Notes: generated from the sequence alone by a model not told the origin. DNA of 35,997 nucleotides from Elusimicrobia bacterium HGW-Elusimicrobia-3 (GCA_002840355.1 PHAL01000025.1:1-35997), one strand, 5' to 3'; shown: positions 4,301 through 32,539, counted from the first letter of the stretch. Program-made: numbers and translations.

Positions 4301-6235
4301 ATGGACAAACAAAAAGGTTTCCTGGAAGAATCGCTCGCGCAGTCGCAGGGCAAGGATGTCTGCCGCGCCCTTTTCGACGGCTCACCGGACGCCATCTTCC
4401 TGGCCGATCCCAAGACCGGCCTCATCCTTGACGCCAACCAGGCAGCCGAGCGCCTGCTGGGCCGGCCCATCGAGGAGATCATCGGTATGCACCAGACCGC
4501 CCTTCACCCCCCGAAACGGGAGAAGGCCTCACAGCGCATCTTCCAGGAACACTCCGCCTCGGACGGCGAGACCGTTCACGGCGGCCCAGAGGCGCACTAC
4601 GCGCTGCGCGCGGACGGCACCGAGGTGCCGATAGAGATCACCGCCAAGATCATTAAGATAAAGGGCCGCAAGGTACTGCAGGGCTTTTTCCGCGACGTTT
4701 CCGCCCGCAAAAAGACGGAGCTGGCGCTGAAGGAATCCGAGCTCAAGTTCAAGACGCTCACGGAGAAATCCATAGTGGGCGTCTACCTGATACAGGGCGG
4801 CCTGTTCCGCTACGTCAACCCGGTAATGTCCGAGGTCTTCGGCTACTCGCCGGAGGAATTGATAAACAGAAAAGGCCCGCAGGACCTGGTGCAGGCGGAA
4901 GATTGGCCGCTGGTGCAGGAAAGCCTGCGGCGGCGGCTGGACGGCGAGATCAAGTCCCTGAACTACGGTTTCCGCGGCGTCAGAAAGGACGGCGCCGTGA
5001 TCTACGCCGAAGTTTTCGGCACCCGCATAGACTACCTCGGCCAGCCAGCCGTCATCGGCACCCTGCTGGACGTCACGGAGCGCAAGCGTGCGCAGGAGGC
5101 CCTGCGCGAGAGCGAGGAGCGCTACCGCACGCTGGTCGACCACGCCCCGGTGGGCATAGTGGTGCACGCGGCCGGAGCGATGCGCTTCGTCAACAGCAGG
5201 ATGGCGGAGATCGTGCGCGTGGGCGAGCCCGGCGCACTGGTCGGCCGGAACGCAATGGAATTCATGCACCCGGACTCGCGGGACCTGGCCTCCGGGCGCA
5301 TAAGCAAGGCCATGGCCGACGGCGCGCCGCTGCCGGCGGCGGAGGAGCGCCTTATAGCCGAGGACGGCACGGTGGTGGACGTGGAAACGACTTCGGCACC
5401 GCTGATCTACCGCGGCGAGCGCTGCCTGATGGCCATCGTGCAGGACATCACCGCCCGCAAGCTCGCTGAAAAAGAACTCAAGGCCGCCCACGACCAGCTG
5501 CTGGAAGCCAAAGCGCGGCTGGAGGAGCGCGTGACGGAGCGCACCGCCCAGCTGGAGGAACTCAACAAGGAACTGGAAGCTTTCTCCTATTCCGCCGCCC
5601 ACGACCTAAAGGCACCGCTGCGCCGCATCAACGTCTTCTCCGACATGCTGCAGAAAGAAGCCTCCCCCCTGCTCAAGAACGGCACGCAGGAATACCTGGC
5701 CAACATACACAAATCCGTGAACCAGATGACGCGCCTGGTGGACGGCCTGCTCTCGCTGTCCACCACCGGCCGCAGGCCGCTGGAACTGGAGACGGTCTCG
5801 CTTACCGCCCTCCTGGAAGAAGCCCTGACCGAAGTGAAGACCGAGAACCCCGGCCGCGAGATAGAATGGGGCTTCCAAACCCTCCCCGTGGTAAAATGTG
5901 ACAGGGCCATGCTCCGGCAGGTCTTCATCAACCTCCTCGGCAACGCCGCCAAGTATTCCCGCGGCAGCAGCCCGGCGCGCGTGGAGGTCTTTTACTCCTG
6001 CACGGGGCGCGAGCACGTGATAGGAGTACGCGACAACGGGGTAGGCTTCGACATGGAGTACGCCGGCAAGCTTTTCGGCGTCTTCCAGCGGCTGCACCGC
6101 AGCGAGGAATTCGAGGGCACCGGCATAGGCCTGTCCACGGTAAAGCGCATCATCACCCGCCACGGCGGGCGCGTCTGGGCCGAGGCCGAAGCGGGCAAGG
6201 GCGCGGTCTTCTACTTCTCGCTTCCAATCAAATGA
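4301..6235 (+). CDS. Soluble sensor histidine kinase with three PAS domains
   Basis: The kinase senses a cytosolic signal through PAS domains and autophosphorylates on His. With the start at 4301 (644 aa), PAS domains lie near residues 20-135, 145-265 and 270-390. A coiled coil follows (residues 390-425), then the phosphoacceptor His434 in SAAHDLKAPLRR. The ATPase domain has an N box (NLLGNAAKYS), G1 (DNGVGFDM), F box (LFGVFQRLH) and G2 (GTGIGLSTVK). No transmembrane helix is seen. A GTG at 4277 is also in frame, but GGGGTGGGGGA just before 4301 acts better as the ribosome site. Its stop overlaps the start of the radical SAM gene (ATGA). No cognate response regulator is adjacent. Confidence 0.9.
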   Translation: MDKQKGFLEESLAQSQGKDVCRALFDGSPDAIFLADPKTGLILDANQAAERLLGRPIEEIIGMHQTALHPPKREKASQRIFQEHSASDGETVHGGPEAHYALRADGTEVPIEITAKIIKIKGRKVLQGFFRDVSARKKTELALKESELKFKTLTEKSIVGVYLIQGGLFRYVNPVMSEVFGYSPEELINRKGPQDLVQAEDWPLVQESLRRRLDGEIKSLNYGFRGVRKDGAVIYAEVFGTRIDYLGQPAVIGTLLDVTERKRAQEALRESEERYRTLVDHAPVGIVVHAAGAMRFVNSRMAEIVRVGEPGALVGRNAMEFMHPDSRDLASGRISKAMADGAPLPAAEERLIAEDGTVVDVETTSAPLIYRGERCLMAIVQDITARKLAEKELKAAHDQLLEAKARLEERVTERTAQLEELNKELEAFSYSAAHDLKAPLRRINVFSDMLQKEASPLLKNGTQEYLANIHKSVNQMTRLVDGLLSLSTTGRRPLELETVSLTALLEEALTEVKTENPGREIEWGFQTLPVVKCDRAMLRQVFINLLGNAAKYSRGSSPARVEVFYSCTGREHVIGVRDNGVGFDMEYAGKLFGVFQRLHRSEEFEGTGIGLSTVKRIITRHGGRVWAEAEAGKGAVFYFSLPIK

Positions 6236-7059
6236 AAAAGAATTACCGCCGGGCTTTCATAGAGATCACCAACAGCTGCAACCTGGCTTGCCCCTTTTGC
6301 GCCGCCTCCTCCAGGCCGCGGCGGGAAATGCCGCTGGCCCTATTCGAGAAAGCGGCCGCCCAGGCCGGCGCGCTGGCCGAAGTAGTCTCGCTGCACCTGC
6401 TGGGAGAGCCGCTGACCCATTCCGACTTTCCCGCCATACTCGGCGCCTGCTCCAGGCTGGGCCTGCGGGTCAACCTGGTCACCAACGGCACGCTGCTAGG
6501 GGACTATCCCCCCGCCCTCTTCCTGGAAAAATGCCTGGCTCAGGTCTCCATCTCCCTGCAGTCGCTGGCCTGCCTGCCACCGGAGCGGCGGAGTGCCGCC
6601 CTGGCGCGCCTGGCGGCCTTCGCGCTGGCCAAGCCGCCGGGGCTGATAGTCGGCTTCCGCCTGCGCTCCGGTGAGCAGGACGATTTTTACAAGGAGGCGG
6701 TAAAAGCCCTGCTGGCTCATTTCAAAACCACGGCCGCGCCCGGCCCCGACTATGTGCGCCTGGCCGACGGGGTATTCCTTAATTTCGGCGGCCTCTTCGA
6801 CTGGCCCGGCGGCGAGCGGGGCAGGCCCAAGAGCGGCTGCCTGGGGCTGAGGCACCATTTCGGCGTGCTCAGCGACGGCCGCGTAGTGCCCTGCTGCGCC
6901 GACTTCGACGGCGCCCTGGCCCTCGGGAACATAAACGAAAGGCCGCTGGCCGAAATTTTGTCCGCCCCGGGCGCCCTGGCGCTGAAGGACAGCATAGCCG
7001 GGAAAACGGCCATGCCGGCCTACTGCGCCTCCTGCGGCTTCTCCGCCCTCGATAGTTGA
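6232..7059 (+). CDS. Radical SAM protein with SPASM-like C-terminus
   Basis: This is a predicted iron-sulfur enzyme that cleaves S-adenosylmethionine. The [4Fe-4S] motif is C16-x3-C20-x2-C23 (CNLACPFC). The C-terminal part has C203, C221, C222 and C265-x2-C268 in a SPASM/twitch-like arrangement (SDGRVVPCC, CASCGF), which usually binds extra clusters in enzymes that modify peptides or proteins. At 275 aa it is short for a full SPASM enzyme, so a twitch-type domain is possible. Translation is coupled to the histidine kinase by a 4-base ATGA overlap. No precursor peptide gene was found next to it, and the substrate is unknown. Confidence 0.85.
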   Translation: MKKNYRRAFIEITNSCNLACPFCAASSRPRREMPLALFEKAAAQAGALAEVVSLHLLGEPLTHSDFPAILGACSRLGLRVNLVTNGTLLGDYPPALFLEKCLAQVSISLQSLACLPPERRSAALARLAAFALAKPPGLIVGFRLRSGEQDDFYKEAVKALLAHFKTTAAPGPDYVRLADGVFLNFGGLFDWPGGERGRPKSGCLGLRHHFGVLSDGRVVPCCADFDGALALGNINERPLAEILSAPGALALKDSIAGKTAMPAYCASCGFSALDS

Positions 7060-14640: not shown

Positions 14641-16143
14641 ATGGCGCAAAAGACCTTCATAATAGTCGCCACCGGCGACCTGAAAAAGCCCCCGATCAAT
14701 ATCGCCTACACCAAGGCTTACCTGGACCATTGCGCGCCGGTCGGGCGCAGGCTGAAAACCTCGCTGCTCTTTCCGCGGCGGCAGGGCTCCTTCGCCGGTG
14801 TAGCCGAACAGGTCGCCAGACTGGATCCCGCCGCGGTCTTATTCCACAGCCACATAGAGTGGAGCGCCGCGGACTGCCTCAGGGCCTGCGCCCGGTTGCG
14901 GCGGCGGCGGCCCGGGCTGTATATACTCCTCAGCGGCGAGCCGGTGAACAAGGTGTCGCTGGCCGACGCCGCCAGGCACGGCGTGGACTACCTGATACGC
15001 GGCGAGGCGGAACTGCCAGCCGCGAAGATCCTGAAGCGCGTACTCGCCGACCTGACCGCCGGCCGGCCCCGCTCCGGCAAACCGGAGATCCATTACGCCG
15101 GCCGCGGCGTGAGCGACCCGGACACACTGCCCTCTCCCTACCTGAACGGCTATTTCGACATGGCGGCGCTCAAATCGGCCCAGGTGATAGTCGCCAGGGG
15201 CTGCGACAACAAATGCCTGTACTGTTCCATCAACCAGAGCAGCCTGCGCTACCATTCTTTCGGCAGAATTAAGGCCGAACTGGCGTACATACTCGAGAAC
15301 GCCCCCGCGCTGCGCGAAATACTGCTTACCGTTTCCGACATTTACGCCGACCGGCCGCTGGCGCGACGGCTGCTGGCCTGGCTCAGGCCGCGCGCCGAGC
15401 GCGACGGCATAAAGATCTGCTTGTGCACCAACGGCGGCAGGGCCATCCCCCCCGCGCTGCTCAAGCTCTCCGATTCCCCCTGCTTCGACATCCGCATAGG
15501 CGTACAGTCCCTGGCCCCCGGCGTACTGCGCGCCATACGGCGCCGGGCAGACGCCGAAGGCCTGAAGCGCAATATACTGAGGATCAGGGCGGGCGCGCCG
15601 CGCGCTACCGTGGGGCTTGAGCTTATACGCGGCCTGCCGGGAGATACGGAGAAGAGCTACCGCGACACGCTGGAGTGGTGCGCGGCCTCCGGCCTGGAGC
15701 TCTTCGTCAACCACCTCTTCACGATAGCCGGCACGGAGCTGGACAGGCTCTACGACGAGCGCGGCCTGCGGCGCGAGACGGGCTGCCCCTACTACGTGCT
15801 TAACAGCGACGCCCTCAGCGCCCCGCGGCTGGCCGCGCTTACGCGGGAGACGCGCCTGGTGTTCCTGGCCCTCAGCGCCGCGCGCACCTCGCCGGCTTTC
15901 ACCCGGGATTTTTACGCCGCCGCGGCGCGCCTGCGCCGGCCGCACCCGCACCTTTTCCTGGCGCTGGCACTCGCGCGCTGGCTGCTCAAAGGCGCCCTGA
16001 CCGCCCGCACCTGCCGCGATTATCTCAAAAGCCACGCCGGCAAAGACAATATACTCTCCAGCGCCGGCTTCTCGCGCCGCAACGCGGCCGAATTCCACGC
16101 CGCTTTCCGCCAACTCGCGCGCGCGCTGGCGCGGGAGGCCTAG
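14641..16143 (+). CDS. Radical SAM enzyme with N-terminal B12-binding-type fold
   Basis: This is a class-B-like radical SAM protein of 500 aa. Residues 5-140 form a Rossmann-type cobalamin-binding module ([45 protein letters not shown]), but it lacks the DxHxxG motif, so any cobalamin would be bound without a lower His. Residues 180-400 form the radical SAM barrel with C188-x3-C192-x2-C195 (CDNKCLYC) and later [15 protein letters not shown] and [15 protein letters not shown]. The layout resembles BchE-type and related enzymes that act on tetrapyrroles or lipids, but the substrate cannot be read from sequence. The start has a weak ribosome site. It lies directly before the nitrogenase-like fusion gene, which I take as its partner. 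Confidence 0.85.
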
Positions 16144-16183
16144 CCGGACACGGCAAAGGCCCCAAAGCCCGGCCTATTCTTAA

Positions 16184-16189
16184 TATAAT
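16184..16189 (+). promoter_or_regulatory. -10-like box before the NifH-NifD/E fusion gene
   Basis: TATAAT lies 35 bases upstream of the ATG at 16224 in an 80-base gap. No clear -35 box is seen at the right distance. It may give the reductase genes their own promoter besides read-through from the radical SAM gene. Confidence 0.35.
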
Positions 16190-16223
16190 TATCTTTAGCG
16201 TCCGCCCTGCGGGGCCATTACGA

Positions 16224-18668
16224 ATGGAATCCATAGTATTTTTCGGTAAAGGCGGCATAGGCAAAAGCACTATCTCCGCCAATGTCAGCGCCGTCCTGGC
16301 GTCGCTGGGCCGCCGCGTGCTGCACGTGGGCTGCGACCCCAAGATGGACTCCACGCTGTCGCTGATGGGCCGGTCCATTCCCCCTTTCTCCTCCGTCTCC
16401 GGCGGCGCCTCGGGGCCGCACCTCAAGTCCATGATCTTCAAGCCGCCCATAGCCGGCGTCAGCTGCGTCGAGGCCGGCGGGCCGGAACCGGGCGTGGGCT
16501 GCGCGGGCGTAGCCATAGGCACGCTGCTCGACGCGGTGCGCGCGGAGAACTTCGCCGAGAGGGACGTGTACGACGCCTTCGTCTACGACGTGCTGGGCGA
16601 CGTGGTCTGCGGCGGCTTCGCCGCCCCGCTCAAGCGAGGCGTGGCCGAGAAGGCCGTGATAGTCACTTCAGAGGAACTGCTCTCCCTCTACGCGGCCAAC
16701 AACCTGCTTAAGATGCTCAATAATTATTCCCGCAACGGCGTCTTTCTCGCCGGCCTGGCGCTGAACGTCAGGGACCGGGAAGGCCTGAAGACGGCGCAGC
16801 GCTTCGCCCGCGCGGCCAACGTGAAGATCCTCGGCGTCACTTTCCGGGACAAGGCGGTAACCCGCGCCGAGAAATTGCGCAAGCCTGCGGTGCTGGCCTT
16901 CCCCGGCAGCGAATTTTCAAAGAATCTGAAGCGGCTGTGCCTGGCCATCAGCGCGGCCCGCAAACCCGCGGCGCCGCCCAGACCGCTCTCCGACGCGGAA
17001 TTCGCGGCTTTTGCCGGGGATGCCCCGGCCGCGCCCGCGGCGGCACGCGCCGCGCGCGCCGGCGCCGCGCCCCTCTCCGTCACCACCCTCAGCGCCGCGG
17101 GCTTCACCCTCACCGGGCTGCGCGACGGCCGGCTGATCTGCGCCTGGCGCTGCAGCCGCGGCGAACTGACGGTGGAGATCGAGCCGGCCGACAGGGCCGG
17201 GGAAGGGAGTTTCCGTTATTCAGACTGGGCCGCCCGCGCCGCACCCGGCGGGAACGGCCCGGAAAGACCGGAGGAGTACGCTCCCGAGCTGCGCAAGTCG
17301 CTGGCCGCCCTGTCCGCCGCCGCCTACAAGGACCTGCTCGCCCTTTTCGTCGGCGGCAAAGACCCTTACGCCGCCATCTACGCCCTCTGCGGGCGGCCCT
17401 GCAAGAAACCGCACAGCGTGCCCTACCCCGACAACCACCTGGGCCGCTGGCACCGCTTCGCTTTCCCTATCCTGCGCGATTCCGGCTACTGCCTGCCCCC
17501 GGCCGCGCTGCTGGACTACGCCGACGCCGAATGCCGCTTCAACGACGCCACCAAAGGCGGCGGGCTGGGCCTCTATGACCTGCCGCGCAACAGGGACCTG
17601 CTCACCCCGCGCCTGCCCGCCTCCGGCATCGCCTACGTGAACACCGATTTCAGGCTGGCCGACGCGGTGCGCGGCGACGACGCCAACCTCAAACGCTGCC
17701 TGCGCAAGGCCGCCGCAGCCCAGACCGCCGACGGCCTGATAGAGCTGCACATCGGCTGCTCGCCGCTGATGATAGGCTCCGACCTGGAACAGGCGGTCAA
17801 GGATGTCAGCGCCGCCACCGGCACGGAGATCTCGCTCGAGGACGTGCACGGCTTCGACGCCGAAGACGAGGAGCGCGACGCCAAGCGGCTGGCCGTCATG
17901 GTGCGCACGCTGCGGCGCGCCGCCGGCAAACCCGCTTACGACGCCTGCCTGGTGGATTTCGGCCCCGGGGCCGGCGCGCTCTCCGACTACCTGGGCCGGC
18001 ACGGCGTCACTACCCGCGCGCAGCACGCCAATTTCACCCCCGAAGCCGCGAGGGCCCGCCTGCGCGTGCTGGCCGACGCGTCTTCCATCAAGGCCGCGGC
18101 TTTCACCGCCGCTGGAAAGAAATGGATCGCCCCGCCGCTGCCCTACGGCTTCGCCGCCGCCGACGCCTGGCGGCGCTCCGTGGGCGCGAGCCTCGGCAAA
18201 GAGCTTCCGGGCGCGACCGCCGAAGAAAAAAAGGCCGCCGCCGCGCTGCTGCGAGAACTCAAGCCTGTTTACGCCGGGTTCATCCTGGAGGAAGCCGACC
18301 TGAAGCGCCTGGCCGCCGCCGACAGCGATTTCCCCGCCGCGCTGGCGCTGCCTTTACTGGCGTGGGCCGGCGTGGGCGTGCACCTGCTGGTGAAGACCGC
18401 TGGCCGCAAGCCGCAGCTGCCGCCGGCCCTGCTGCGGCTGCTCAAGCCCTGCCGCCCGAAGGTGGATACTTTCACGGACCAGGCCGGCCTCTACCGCGCG
18501 CTGAGCCGCGCCGCGGCGACCAGGCTGGTCTACTCGGACATCCGCGCCGACGCCAGGCTGACCGCCGTCGGCAAAAGCCCGTTCTCCTGCGCGCTGCTGG
18601 AATACGGCTACGCCGGCGCCGTGGAGACGCTGCGGCGCCTGGCCGAGCTGGCGAAGGCGGAATACTGA
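16224..18668 (+). CDS. NifH-like iron protein fused to a NifD/E-like catalytic domain
   Basis: One 814-residue chain holds two modules. Residues 1-245 are a NifH/BchL-type ATPase: Walker A G8-KGGIGKST, switch motif GCDPKMDST (36-44), cluster cysteines C93 (PGVGCAG) and C129 (DVVCGGF), and [10 protein letters not shown] (151-160). An Ala/Pro-rich linker and an extra domain follow (245-400). Residues 400-814 match nitrogenase component 1: [13 protein letters not shown] near 474, [15 protein letters not shown] with C512, and the ending [21 protein letters not shown]423, C437 and C512 are the best candidates for cluster ligands. The Arg after the first NifH cluster Cys (GCAGR) is Val here. In nitrogenase, DPOR and CfbCD these modules are separate proteins. 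Its stop overlaps the next start (TGATG). Confidence 0.88.
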
Positions 18669-19921
18669 TGAGCGCCGACACTCTAGCGGAGGACAAAGTT
18701 TTCAAGCTGCCCTATCAGCTGGGCGTCTACCTAACGGTCAACGCCGTCTCCGACGCCGCGCTGATCGTGGACGGCCCCAACTGCTCCATCCCCAAGGCCG
18801 AATTCATCTACGGCAACCACGACCTGCGCTCCACCCTGTTCTCACCGGCAGGCGAGCACCGGCTTTTCTACACCATGACCCAGCCGCTAAAACAGAGCGG
18901 CAATCCCGAAAGCCTGCTCTCCGTGTTGCTGGCCACCGCCTCCAGGTCGGAACTCTTCGGCGTGATCATGGTCACGGCCCTGCCGTTCATGAAGCTGGCC
19001 GGGCAGGACTACGACGGCCTGGCCGCCGGCGCCGCGGGCCGGACGCCGGTGACGGAAGTGCCCGCCGGCTCGCTTGAAGGCGACTGGCTGGACGGCTACG
19101 CCCGCGGCCTGGCCGCGCTGGCCCGCGCGCTGCCGCCCGGCAAGGCGAAGCGGCGCAAGCGCTCGGTGGCCCTGGTCGGCTATTTAATGGACCGCAACGA
19201 AGGGGACCACGCCGCCAACCTCAAGGAACTCCGCGGGCTGCTGGAACTCTGCGGCCTGGAACTGGCCTGCGTTTTTCCCGGCGGCGGTAATTTTAAATCT
19301 TTGGCCGGGGCGCTGACGGCGGAGGTGGTGGTTTCGCTGCCTTACGGCCGCGAGGCCGCCGCCCTGATATCCGCCCGCTCCGGAGCGCGGCTGGTCGAGA
19401 CGGGTCTGCCGCTGGGCGTGCGGGGCACCGCGGCCTGGCTGGCCCAGGTCTGCGCCGCGGCCGGTGTGAAACCCGGCAAAGCGGCGGCGCTGGCGCAGGC
19501 CGGGGCGCAGGCGGCCTTGCTCCCCGCCAGGGCCCCGCTCAACTACAAGCCCGCGGTTTTCGCCGGGGACCCTTACCTTTACACCGCCCTCGCGGCCTTC
19601 CTCAAAGAATTGGGCATGCGCCCCGACACGGCCTTCTGCTGCAGCTCCCACCGCAGGCTGCCGTCGGCCCCGGCCAGGCTGCTGTTCGCTCCCGCGGTAC
19701 GGGAAGCCAGAGACACGGTAGCCGCCCTGCAGGGGTTTGAAAAGCCAGCCCTGCTTATAGGCAACTCCTTCGCCAAGTCCGAGGACTTCGCCCCCGGAGT
19801 GCCGTTCCTGGAACTGGGCTTCCCGTCCTATGGCCGGCACTGCCTCACCGACCAGCCTTTCCTCGGCTACGCCGGGGCCCTTAGGCTGGCCGAGCGCCTG
19901 CTCAACTCTCAACTCCGCTGA
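18668..19921 (+). CDS. NifK/NifN-like component-1 subunit with reduced ligand set
   Basis: The 417-residue protein is the second half of a component-1 heterodimer. The N-terminus has VDGPNCSIPKAEF with C39 at the place of the HGPxGC cysteine. The first usual cysteine is absent (KLPYQLG), and the TCP position reads TALPFMK, without Cys. The C-terminus has the subunit-specific IGNSFAKSEDF and LGFPSYGRHCLTDQPFLGYAGALRLAERLL, close in pattern to NifK. With one Cys here and three in the fusion, the pair could hold one [4Fe-4S] cluster at the interface as in dark-operative protochlorophyllide reductase. I chose ATG 18668 because it overlaps the fusion stop and begins the conserved part; the frame stays open upstream inside the fusion gene. 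Confidence 0.82.
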   Translation: MSADTLAEDKVFKLPYQLGVYLTVNAVSDAALIVDGPNCSIPKAEFIYGNHDLRSTLFSPAGEHRLFYTMTQPLKQSGNPESLLSVLLATASRSELFGVIMVTALPFMKLAGQDYDGLAAGAAGRTPVTEVPAGSLEGDWLDGYARGLAALARALPPGKAKRRKRSVALVGYLMDRNEGDHAANLKELRGLLELCGLELACVFPGGGNFKSLAGALTAEVVVSLPYGREAAALISARSGARLVETGLPLGVRGTAAWLAQVCAAAGVKPGKAAALAQAGAQAALLPARAPLNYKPAVFAGDPYLYTALAAFLKELGMRPDTAFCCSSHRRLPSAPARLLFAPAVREARDTVAALQGFEKPALLIGNSFAKSEDFAPGVPFLELGFPSYGRHCLTDQPFLGYAGALRLAERLLNSQLR

Positions 19922-20838
19922 TGACACGCCTGATAATAGTTTCCTGGCTCTGGGCCTTCTCCTTCGGCATCAACAAACAATGGATAGCCGGGGCGGACCC
20001 CGTGCTGGTTACCCTTATACGCCTGGGCCTGGCCCTGCTGGCGCTGCTGCCCTGGCTGCGGCTGCCGCGAGCGGGCCGCCGCGGCGCGGCGGAACTGATG
20101 GGTATCGGTGCGGTGCAGTTCGGCCTGATGTACGTGGCGCTGAACTACTGCTTCATAGTATTGCAGGCCTACCAGGTGGCGTTGTTCACGGTCATGACGC
20201 CGCTGTATGTGGCCGCCATACACGCCGGGCGCTCCCGCCGGGCGCCGGCCGGCCTTTTTGCCGCGGCCGGCTTGGCGCTGCTGGGCGCGGCCCTGGTGGA
20301 GCGCTGGGCGGTGGACAGGCGCGCCTTCTGGCAGGCCTTCGCGGTGATGCAGGTTTCCAACGCCGCTTTCGCCTGGGGGCAGGTGGCCTACAGGGACTGG
20401 CGACGGCGCAACCCGGCGGAGCGAGACTTGGATATTTTCGGCTGGCTGTATCTGGGCGGCACCCTGGTTGCCCTGGCCTGGGCTGCCCTGGGTTCGGATT
20501 GGGGTGAATTGCTGGCTTACTCGCCGCAGCGCTGGGCTGCACTGCTCTACCTGGGCTTGATAGCCTCCGGCGCTGGCTTCTTCCTATGGAACACCGGCGC
20601 TACGCGGGTGACGCCCGGAGCGCTGGCGGCCATGAACAATCTCAAGAGCCCGCTGGCGGTGCTGGTTTCGGTTATTTTCTGGGGTGCTTATGCGGCCATG
20701 CGGCCGGCGGACTGGTTTTTACTAGCCGCCGGCGCCGCGTGCATAATAGGCGCGGCCGCGTGGGGCGCGGCCGAAAAAGATACTCCCTCTACTTCTTCCG
20801 CTCCGGGGCGGAGCGGTCCTTCAGCCATCCAACCATAG
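19921..20838 (+). CDS. EamA-family (DMT superfamily) transporter
   Basis: This integral membrane protein has about ten helices in two EamA halves: residues 1-130, including FSFGINKQWIAG and QVALFTVMTPLYVAAIHAG, and 145-285, ending PADWFLLAAGAACIIGAAA. The second half carries ATRVTPGALAAMNNLKSPLAVL, a typical EamA stretch. Family members export amino acids, nucleobases or other small metabolites. Its ATG overlaps the stop of the NifK-like gene by one base, so it belongs to the same operon and may export the product or import a precursor. Its last 20 residues are Ser/Pro-rich and lie outside the membrane domain. Confidence 0.88.
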   Translation: MTRLIIVSWLWAFSFGINKQWIAGADPVLVTLIRLGLALLALLPWLRLPRAGRRGAAELMGIGAVQFGLMYVALNYCFIVLQAYQVALFTVMTPLYVAAIHAGRSRRAPAGLFAAAGLALLGAALVERWAVDRRAFWQAFAVMQVSNAAFAWGQVAYRDWRRRNPAERDLDIFGWLYLGGTLVALAWAALGSDWGELLAYSPQRWAALLYLGLIASGAGFFLWNTGATRVTPGALAAMNNLKSPLAVLVSVIFWGAYAAMRPADWFLLAAGAACIIGAAAWGAAEKDTPSTSSAPGRSGPSAIQP

Positions 20839-29590: not shown

Positions 29591-32539
29591 ATGCCCACGA
29601 CCAAGAAACCCGGCGACTACGAGATCGAGTTCGGCGGCTTCGAGAAGCTCATGCCCTACAGGATCAAGAACGTCCTGCTGGTGGCCTCCCTCTACGATTC
29701 TTTCCTGCTGGCCGACGACGACCGCCTCAACGAGGCGCTGTTCGGCGAGATGCTGGACTCCTCCCCCCGCTCGGCCCCCAAGATCACCCGCGTGGCCACC
29801 GCCGAGCAGGCGCTGGAGAAGCTCGCCGCGGGCTCCTACGACCTGGTCATAGCCATGATACAGGTGGGCGAGACGGACATGGCCGAATTCTTCCGCGCGG
29901 TGAAGGACGGCCGCCCCGGCCTGCCGGTGGTGCTGCTCTCCTTCAACGTGCAGGACATCAAGAACATCCCCGACGAGACCCGCCTATTGGCCGACGGCGT
30001 CTACCTGTGGAGCGGCGACACGCGCATCTTTTCGGCCATCATCAACCTCATCGAGGACGCGCGGAACCTCGAATGCGACGCCAAGGTGGGCGTGCAGGCC
30101 GTGCTGCTGGTGGAGGACAACATCAAGTTCTACTCCACCTACCTGCCCATCATCTACACCGAGCTGATGAAGCAGACGCAGATCGTGATGGCCGAGGAGC
30201 TGAACCCCGCCAAGAAGACGCTGCGCCTGCGCGCGCGCCCGAAGGTGCTGTTCTGCAGCACCTACGACGAGGCCTGGGCGATCTACGAGAAATACAAGGC
30301 CAACCTGCTGGGCGTCATCAGCGATATCGAGTACCCCAAGGACGGCGCCTGCCATCCCGAGGCGGGCCTGGAGCTGACGCGCCGCATCAAGGAGGAGAAC
30401 CCCGACATGCCGGTGCTGCTGCAGTCCTCCAACGCCGCTTTCGCGCACAACGCCGGCCGGCTGGAGGCCTCGTTCATGCACAAGGCCGCCGCCGACCTCT
30501 CCAAGCAGCTGCGCGCCTTCATCACCCGCTACTTCGGCTTCGGGGACTTCGTCTTCGCCGACGAGAACGGCGCCGAGCTGGCCCGCGCCTCCGACCTGGG
30601 CGCGATGCTGCGCCTGCTCAAGGTGGTGCCGCTGGAGTCCATCCTCTACCACGCCGGCCGCAACCACTTCTCGAAGTGGCTGTTCGCCCGCACCGAGTTC
30701 GAGATGGCCTACAACATCAGGCCCAAGAAGATCTCCGAGTTCGGCAACCCGGAGCAGCTGCGCAAGTACCTCATCGAGACGCTGCACCAGTTCATCTACA
30801 AGACCCAGCTGGGCACCGTGCTCAAGTTCGACCGCAAGCTCTTCGACGATTCCACCCCTTTCAGCAAGATCGGCTCCGGCTCCATCGGCGGCAAGGCCCG
30901 GGGGCTCGCCTTCGTGGATTTCCTGCTCAGCAAGACGGACCTGGAGCACCGCTGGCCCGGCGTCACCGTCACCGTGCCCAACACCGTGGTGATCGCCTCG
31001 GACGTATTCGACTTCTTCATGGAGCAGAACGGCCTGGACACGATGATCAACGAGGGCCGCTCCAACGACGACACGGCGGCGCTCTTCGAGCGGGCCCGCC
31101 TGCCCGACTACGTGTTGCGCGACCTGCAGGCGCTGATAGGCAAACTGGAAGGCCCGCTGGCCGTGCGCTCGAGCTCGCTGCTCGAGGACTCCAAGACCCA
31201 GCCCTTCGCCGGCGTCTACAAGACCTACATGCTCGCCAATAACCATCCGGACCCGGCGCGCCGCCTCGACGAACTGGCCCGCGCGGTCAAGTTCGTCTAT
31301 GCCTCGGTCTTCTCGCGCGAGGCGCGCGCCTACCGCCGGCTGAACCCGCTGATCATAGACGAGGAGAAGATGGCGGTGGTGGTACAGCGCGTAGTAGGCC
31401 GCGAGTACGGCAGCGGGCGCCATTACCCGGCCTTCGCCGGCGTGATGCAGTCCTACAACTACTACCCGGTGCCGCCGCTGGAGGCCGAGGACCCGATAGC
31501 GCACATCGCGCTGGGGCTGGGCAAGACCATCGTGGAGGGCTTCAACGCGCTGCGCTTCTCGCCCGCCCACCCGCAGAACCTGCACCAGTTCTCCACCACG
31601 GCCGACTTCCTGGGCAACTCCCAGAAGAAACTGATAGCCCTGCGTACCGGCCAGCCGGAATCGCGCCTGAGCTTCGAGGAAGAGCCCGCGCTCACCACGG
31701 CCACCGTGCAGGACGCCGAGGAGGACGGCACGCTGGAGCTGGTGGGGTCCACCTACTCGGCGGAGGACGACCGCATCAATGACGGCATTGCCGACCCCGG
31801 CCACCGCTTGGTCACCTTCGCCCCGCTGCTCAAGAACGAGGTGCTGCCGCTGGCAGACATCCTCAACGCCGTGTCGGCGCTGGGCAAGGAGGCGATGGGC
31901 TGCAACATAGAGGTGGAGTTCGCCTGCGATTACGACCAGGCCTCGGGCGCCGCCGTCTTCAACATCCTGCAGATGCGGCCCATGGTCTCGCGCAGCCCGG
32001 TCAAGAAGGTCTCGCTGAAGGACCTCAGGCCCGAGAACCTGCTCTGCCTCAGCGCGCAGGCGCTGGGCAACGGCGCGCACCGCGATATCGCCGACCTGAT
32101 CTACGTGATACCGGAGAAGTTCGACCAGCTCAAGACCCGCGAGATAGCCGAGGAGATCGGCGTGATGAACGCGCGCCTGCGCGAGGAGGGCCGCCCCTAC
32201 CTGGTGATAGGCCCCGGCCGCTGGGGCTCCAGCGACCCCTCCCTGGGCATACCGGTCAAATGGCACCACATCTCCGGCTCGCGCATCATCATCGAGGCGG
32301 CCTACGGCGACTTCGTGGTGGACCCGTCCTACGGCACGCATTTCTTCCACAACGTGACGTCGCTGGGCATAGGCTACTTCACCATCAACGAGACCGGCCC
32401 CGAGGCCTTCATCAACTGGGACAAGATCAAGGCCGAGCGGCCCCTGGCCGAGGCGAATTACATCCGGCATATCCGCTTCCCCGGGCCGCTGGACATACGC
32501 ATAGACGGTTCCGAGGGCCGCGCCGCCGTGGCGCTCTAA
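29591..32539 (+). CDS. Receiver-like plus PEP/pyruvate-binding (PPDK-N type) ATP-grasp protein
   Basis: The 982-residue cytosolic protein has two receiver-like segments. The first (residues 25-130) is degenerate. The second (165-310) keeps VLLVEDN and a possible phospho-Asp in [11 protein letters not shown] linker (310-430) leads to the ATP-grasp domain of pyruvate phosphate dikinase/PEP synthase: [36 protein letters not shown] and [10 protein letters not shown]. The swivelling phospho-His domain and the PEP-binding barrel are absent. It cannot do the full PEP synthase reaction alone; phosphotransfer control is a guess. A TAAAAT box ends 7 bases before the ATG and there is no ribosome site, so it may be leaderless. 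It is divergent from serC. Confidence 0.85.

Follow-up and report, generated by a model that had tools for sequence, protein, structure and literature searches.

The 35,997-nucleotide contig PHAL01000025.1 of Elusimicrobia bacterium HGW-Elusimicrobia-3 (GCA_002840355.1, positions 1-35997) carries, between positions 14641 and 20838, a gene in which a NifH-type ATPase is fused to a D-like component-1 domain of the nitrogenase superfamily, followed by a gene for a K/N-like component-1 subunit. This arrangement, termed the HD-K system here, raises the question of which metal clusters such an enzyme holds and what it reduces. The window is the whole of this stretch, contig C87 of genome G000, an Elusimicrobiota genome of 2.88 Mb that is 97% complete. 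A preliminary description had read the locus as an undescribed-looking, self-contained reductase exporting its product, and had contrasted it with known families built of separate chains. Its interpretation was partly supported: the ATP-driven reductase of nitrogenase ancestry was judged right, as was its lead to nitrogenase paralogues beside radical S-adenosylmethionine (SAM) genes in Elusimicrobiota, whereas the claims of novelty, separate chains and an exporter were wrong or not supported. The system is probably an ATP-driven group VI reductase, with NifH joined to the D-like domain, that would act on an organic substrate through a small-cluster, DPOR-like mechanism.

Domain composition of the HD-K proteins

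The two proteins and their parts, all on the + strand, are as follows.

16224..18668, +: NifH plus component-1 (D-like) fusion P0001, 814 residues (Pfam; 39 non-redundant fused open reading frames, ORFs; AlphaFold2 mean predicted local distance difference test score, pLDDT, 81)
16224..17027, +: NifH-type ATPase domain, residues 1-268 (Fer4_NifH over residues 3-262, E-value 2.8e-61)
16245-16271, +: P-loop GKGGIGKS of the NifH domain, residues 8-16 (invariant in 35 aligned fusions)
16500-16502 and 16608-16610, +: NifH-domain [4Fe-4S] ligands C93 and C129 (each Cys invariant in 35/35 aligned fusions)
17076..17352, +: extra alpha/beta segment between the two homologous domains, residues about 285-376 (secondary structure of the model)
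17421..18665, +: D-like component-1 domain, residues 400-814 (Oxidored_nitro over residues 470-685, E-value 4.3e-12)
18668..19921, +: K/N-like component-1 subunit, 417 residues (Oxidored_nitro over the whole length, E-value 4.9e-43)

The Fer4_NifH match and the two invariant cysteines bear out the complete NifH ATPase that had been noticed, and a fold search with the model of the whole fusion matched this domain to the A. vinelandii Fe protein with a Z score of 36.1 and a root-mean-square deviation of 1.9 over 264 residues. Matches to the NifH domain filled the list of that search, and the D half was placed by profile alone. A profile of the D-like domain (A3, built from 30 relatives) found MarD of methylthio-alkane reductase (E-value 1e-30) and NifE (E-value about 1e-20), so that the C-terminal half of P0001 can be firmly assigned by profile to the component-1 domains, as had been claimed. 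The AlphaFold2 model of the K-like subunit (pLDDT 93.9) lies nearest of all to BchB of DPOR (Z 38.1), with AnfK, NifN and NifK next (Z 31-36). The locus hence encodes all the hallmarks of the nitrogenase superfamily, namely a P-loop ATPase with two bridging cysteines and D- and K-type component-1 partners. A Pfam search with the segment at residues about 285-376 gave no match; the stretch from NifH to the D core spans 130-163 residues in fusions of the window's own family and 42-96 residues in most others.

Distribution and reality of the fusion

H, D and K genes were located as six-frame ORFs, codon-based gene calls being poor on low-GC loci. The HD-K system was found in 23 of the 59 genomes of the window's own family and recurs in three further Elusimicrobiota families (f12, f14 and f15), with 25 carriers by a count made by hand in which G206 and G208 were included on partial matches. 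Because these searches returned 39 non-redundant fused ORFs across four Elusimicrobiota families, the NifH-D fusion is judged from its recurrence to be real and old, and not an accident of assembly. Unfused H, D and K copies exist too, f15 genomes often carrying several H, D and K genes per cluster, and relatives from Myxococcota/Deltaproteobacteria are unfused. Among the relatives are the Elusimicrobia metagenome-assembled genomes GWF2_62_30, GWD2_63_28 and RIFOXYA12_FULL_57_11. At four f15 loci (L080, L081, L083 and L096), as many as three NifH-type genes lie next to several of the D/K type, fused and unfused, within a single genome.

G000 itself holds further copies: a fusion on contig C71 and a K gene at the start of C42. 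In addition, the end of C80 (L062) carries a K gene followed by the start of a NifH gene, the matching D half of which lies at the end of C42 (L061). L022, which has aconitase, K, HD, radical SAM and other genes in common with them, joins these halves by synteny into one K-HD locus, and the genome therefore encodes at least three HD copies. No clear free-standing NifH was found in G000: every well-scoring NifH sequence belongs to a fusion or to the beginning of one (C87, C71, C80/C42), and the only other match, elsewhere on C42, reached 26 bits over 61 positions. The NifH dimer must therefore form between two fusion chains, which constitutes a testable structural prediction; a naturally tethered NifH-D protein could moreover simplify the biochemistry of the superfamily. 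The second fusion (L005:1-939 on C71, - strand) stops at about residue 710 and continues in frame as the C-terminal half of ThiG (PF05690, E-value 3.6e-45), followed by the start of a radical SAM gene, all less than 940 bases from the contig end. This NifH-D-ThiG sequence is probably a chimeric contig end and not a real protein.

Phylogenetic placement of the NifH domain

Maximum-likelihood analysis placed 64 NifH domains of the HD-K system in a single branch (support 93/69, recovered in 92% of bootstrap trees), apart from the branches of NifH (100/99), MarH (100/99), BchX and BchL. This tree was built after removal of four long-branch rows and without CfbC; an earlier tree that kept those rows but had no BchL gave the same picture. 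A tree of the kind proposed as a check in the preliminary description thus leaves the HD-K NifH domain outside each of the four known branches tested, and a NifH branch of its own within the same host phylum agrees with membership of the group VI paralogues of Elusimicrobiota. In NCBIfam, the best-scoring named family for the NifH domain was CfbC, at 213 bits against a cut-off of 402; NifH (TIGR01287) scored 204 against 394, and across 35 fusions the best CfbC and nifH scores were nearly equal. Scores for bchL (153.5/345), bchX (149/331), bchN (55/420) and BchB (39/490), as well as for the other named families, were likewise all below cut-off.

Conservation of cluster ligands

The type of cluster at the D/K interface was addressed through the conservation of its candidate ligands.

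17532-17534 and 17757-17759, +: proposed D cluster ligands C437 and C512 (invariant in 66/66 non-redundant D domains)
18782-18784, +: proposed K cluster ligand C39 (Cys in 59/61 K domains)

In MarDK, the P-cluster is held by C66, C91 and C158 of D and by C32, C56 and C121 of K (PMC12552129). Profile alignment places C437 on MarD C91 and C512 on MarD C158, and no conserved cysteine stands upstream of C437 at the place of MarD C66, where W409 and F412 are conserved instead. On the K side, C39 aligns with a BchZ cysteine and with the Asp of the BchB HAPxGD motif, the Asp ligand of DPOR (D36); the place is that of NifK C95. The counts listed above cover all non-redundant relatives, and the two K proteins without a cysteine at C39 have one a single column off. 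No other cysteine column reaches 60% among the 61 K domains. The sole other well-kept cysteine column of D is C-terminal (50/62) and absent from the window protein; at 18630-18668, the window's fusion lacks the conserved cysteine of the LCxWxFNxRY tail, which is kept in 32/35 fusions. The cysteine of the MarD VGFCY motif, which we take to be the cofactor ligand, has no cysteine counterpart in the D-like alignment.

The HD-K proteins therefore have two cluster cysteines on D and one on K, in place of the three on each that mark the P-cluster of nitrogenases of groups I-III, and show neither the six P-cluster cysteines, the cofactor cysteine nor the MarH-branch ATPase of MarHDK. With three kept cysteines and no VGFCY counterpart, a six-ligand P-cluster and a FeMo-type cofactor are therefore not supported by the alignments, which support instead a putative DPOR-like [4Fe-4S] cluster with three cysteines and one other ligand, or none.

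Absence of NifB from HD-K carriers

NifB builds the core of FeMo-, L- and [Fe8S9C]-type cofactors. No NifB was found in G000, even at an E-value of 1e-3, nor in any of the 48 HD-K carriers at 1e-20. At the latter threshold NifB was detected in nine genomes of the phylum, namely G164 and eight genomes of family f21, and the NifB-positive f21 set coincides fully with the f21 genomes, eight in number, whose free-standing NifH, of group-IV type, matches at an E-value below 1e-45; two of these NifH proteins (L093 and L094) fall with MarH in the maximum-likelihood tree. These f21 genomes are an internal positive control for the NifB search, and the contrast is one of 0/48 carriers with 8/8 f21 free-standing-NifH genomes (Fisher P = 7e-10, not corrected for kinship). 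The active-site cluster of group VI nitrogenases is debated and was left open in a 2025 Nature study of nitrogenase evolution (PMC12176620). The lack of NifB and of a cofactor cysteine, together with three conserved cluster cysteines, argues that the Elusimicrobiota members would hold no NifB-derived cluster, a pattern that bears on when complex metalloclusters arose.

Proposed mechanism

In the favored group VI reductase, two NifH domains would pair around a [4Fe-4S] cluster held by C93 and C129, and ATP hydrolysis would push single electrons into a second [4Fe-4S] cluster at the D/K interface. The latter would be held by D-C437, D-C512 and K-C39, with a non-Cys fourth ligand or an open site, and would reduce an organic substrate directly, as DPOR and CfbCD do, with neither a P-cluster nor a FeMo-type cofactor present. 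The adjoining radical SAM enzymes would probably make or further modify the substrate. Of the elements of this picture, the domains, the K fold, the ligand conservation and the lack of NifB and HemB are shown, whereas the cluster type, the path of the electrons, the class of substrate and the partnership with radical SAM enzymes are inferred.

Several points weigh against this proposal. Which residue serves as the fourth ligand is a guess, with E436 near-invariant and H432 and D434 present in most fusions, although the window protein has Y432. The AlphaFold2 model falls below a pLDDT of 50 at residues 439-448 and 456-469, near the proposed cluster, and with three cysteines the cluster could be a [3Fe-4S] cluster or absent. 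An unrecognised radical SAM enzyme could conceivably stand in for NifB. Finally, the D/K pair could be a maturase and not a reductase.

Substrate and alternative explanations

The best-surviving alternative, itself a sub-case of the general mechanism, so that confidence in the two overlaps, is that HD-K reduces a porphyrin-like ring, as a tetrapyrrole reductase or cofactor maker comparable to BchLNB, BchXYZ and CfbCD. We regard it as possible, if somewhat unlikely. The ligand pattern and the K fold are nearest to tetrapyrrole reductases, CfbC is the top named family for the NifH domain, and the proposal, first made for group VI in 2020, is repeated in the literature (PMC11257099). HemB is needed for a self-made tetrapyrrole and is absent from G000, where such a substrate is therefore unlikely; HemC is represented there by a 38-residue match at 24 bits only, just two TP_methylase matches were obtained, and a ring would need to be scavenged. 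HemB is also absent from 17 of the 23 carriers of the window's family, in which its occurrence is independent of HD-K (odds ratio 1.06, P = 1). All 25 carriers in f12, f14 and f15, on the other hand, have HemB. For genomes that lack HemB, the case for tetrapyrrole modification, the one function so far suggested in print, is hence weakened; the suggestion is possible for the f12-f15 carriers or with scavenged rings.

The second alternative places HD-K in a His-Xaa-Ser / radical SAM peptide pathway, as a tailoring reductase acting on the modified peptide or its product. In 9 of the 23 family carriers, an HxsB gene sits no more than 20 kb away from one for HD-K, where the expectation per genome is about 6% (crude P = 2.5e-6), and a true HxsB, an HxsD and HxsC-like genes are present in HD-K clusters. 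In f12-f15, HxsB occurs in 22/25 carriers versus 13/29 other genomes (P = 0.0014, not corrected for kinship). Within the window's family, however, HxsB does not mark HD-K strictly, since nearly all genomes have it with or without HD-K (P = 0.15), and the peptide pathway is for this reason treated as a rival. Moreover, HxsB and HD-K share no contig in 12 of the 23 family carriers, the window's HD-K has no Hxs genes, and a shared island is no proof of a shared pathway. The peptide reading is unlikely. Equally unlikely, when taken with all its particulars, is a reductase with a three-Cys, site-differentiated [4Fe-4S] cluster whose open iron would bind a peptide or other non-tetrapyrrole product of the His-Xaa-Ser/radical SAM genes, its NifH dimer forming between two fused chains. 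Another G000 contig carries a His-Xaa-Ser system (L113, C49, 1102-10987) with HxsA4 (HGS repeats, NF038313 above cut-off), HxsB and HxsD-like genes. Further genes of this system encode a Cys-rich lipoprotein-like protein (c8), U32 peptidase-like proteins and a radical SAM enzyme of the HxsC-like type.

A maturase or scaffold of the NifEN kind, in place of a catalyst, would agree with the presence of NifE and NifN among the best matches and with the several D/K pairs per f15 genome; NifEN works on NifB products, however, and NifB is absent from the carriers, which makes this role improbable. A true nitrogenase or group-IV-type enzyme (acting on N2, methylthio-alkanes or isethionate) with a large metallocluster is very improbable, since P-cluster and cofactor ligands are absent from all members, NifB is lacking and the NifH domain groups with neither NifH nor MarH in the tree, even though MarD is the top D-side match and the Isr system too has a radical SAM gene adjoining its HDK genes (PMC11423573).

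Relation to known systems

Meheust et al. (2020, ISME J 14:2907) reportedly described the group VI nitrogenase paralogues of Elusimicrobiota. A 2024 paper citing Meheust 2020 mentions for this phylum a nitrogenase homologue of group VI that may take part in tetrapyrrole modification (PMC11257099), and the name group VI is also used elsewhere (PMC9391474). The family is thus already known, contrary to the impression of an undescribed locus, and the window's locus is a further member, sharing the phylum and the radical SAM neighbors of these paralogues; the tetrapyrrole proposal made for them fits G000 poorly. The ligand loss and the NifB and HemB results are, as far as could be checked, additions.

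The fusion itself has a precedent in the fused nifH/nifE noted in Methanomassiliicoccales in 2014 (PMC4153887), so that the known families are not invariably separate chains. A literature search turned up no other natural NifH-NifD fusion, which is weak evidence of absence. In comparison with DPOR (BchL/BchNB) and COR (BchX/BchYZ), HD-K shares the K fold nearest to BchB and a small-cluster ligand set split over D and K, with K-C39 at the place of the BchB Asp, and differs in having two D-side cysteines instead of three, in the fusion and distinct branch of its NifH, and in scoring below the NCBIfam cut-offs. CfbCD of F430 biosynthesis is the closest named system by NifH-domain score, and CfbD likewise has no [8Fe-9S-C] cluster (PMC12176620); CfbD forms homodimers and has no K partner (PMC11423573), unlike HD-K. 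Among solved structures, MarD matches the D half best, whereas Mar has six P-cluster cysteines and an [Fe8S9C] cluster (PMC12552129), against three cysteines and no NifB for HD-K. With IsrBHDK, HD-K shares the adjoining radical SAM gene.

Gene neighborhood

Two further genes flank HD-K in the window.

14641..16143, +: B12-binding / radical SAM enzyme, motif CDNKCLYC (PF04055, E-value 1.6e-15; PF02310, E-value 1.7e-5)
19921..20838, +: EamA-family transporter (PF00892, E-value 3.8e-13)

The gene overlaps that had been described were seen: the stop of the fusion and the ATG of the K-like gene share a TGATG at 18668, and a second TGATG at 19921 overlaps the K-like stop with the EamA start. The upstream gene is indeed a radical SAM enzyme, its B12-binding domain scoring 25.1 bits, slightly under the Pfam cut-off of 32.1; an NCBIfam search with it returned no family at cut-off. 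Conservation of the neighborhood, proposed earlier as a check, was observed for radical SAM genes and not for the transporter. Radical SAM genes are the most regular neighbors of HD-K, but their type varies, including HxsC/MoaA-like (c2, with 55 genes across fetched loci, some of them present twice), HxsB, HemN-like (c6), B12-type (c13 and c19) and c11. The window's own type, c13, recurs in just one further genome (L023/L073), where it adjoins the K-like gene, and c19 in a few, and a fixed B12 radical SAM partner was hence rejected. Among the called flanking genes at L016, L017/L069, L075, L076 and L098, none has a CxxxCxxC motif. EamA adjoins HD-K in the window and at no other fetched locus, and export of the product through it was likewise rejected. 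A self-contained unit is also doubtful, since in other carriers HD-K sits inside larger clusters, together with radical SAM, U32 and His-Xaa-Ser genes. Genes for a YgeY-type hydrolase, a carbamoyltransferase, a class-V aminotransferase or an amino-acid kinase recur near HD-K at six loci (L015, L018, L023, L024, L070 and L072).

Elsewhere in the window, a second radical SAM/SPASM gene at 6232-7059 (PF04055, E-value 2.9e-11; PF13186, E-value 1.1e-11) shares 4 bases with the end of a PAS histidine kinase gene. At 29591-32539, a response-regulator receiver domain is joined to a pyruvate phosphate dikinase ATP-binding domain in one protein, the gene for which adjoins DUF1015 and class-V aminotransferase genes.

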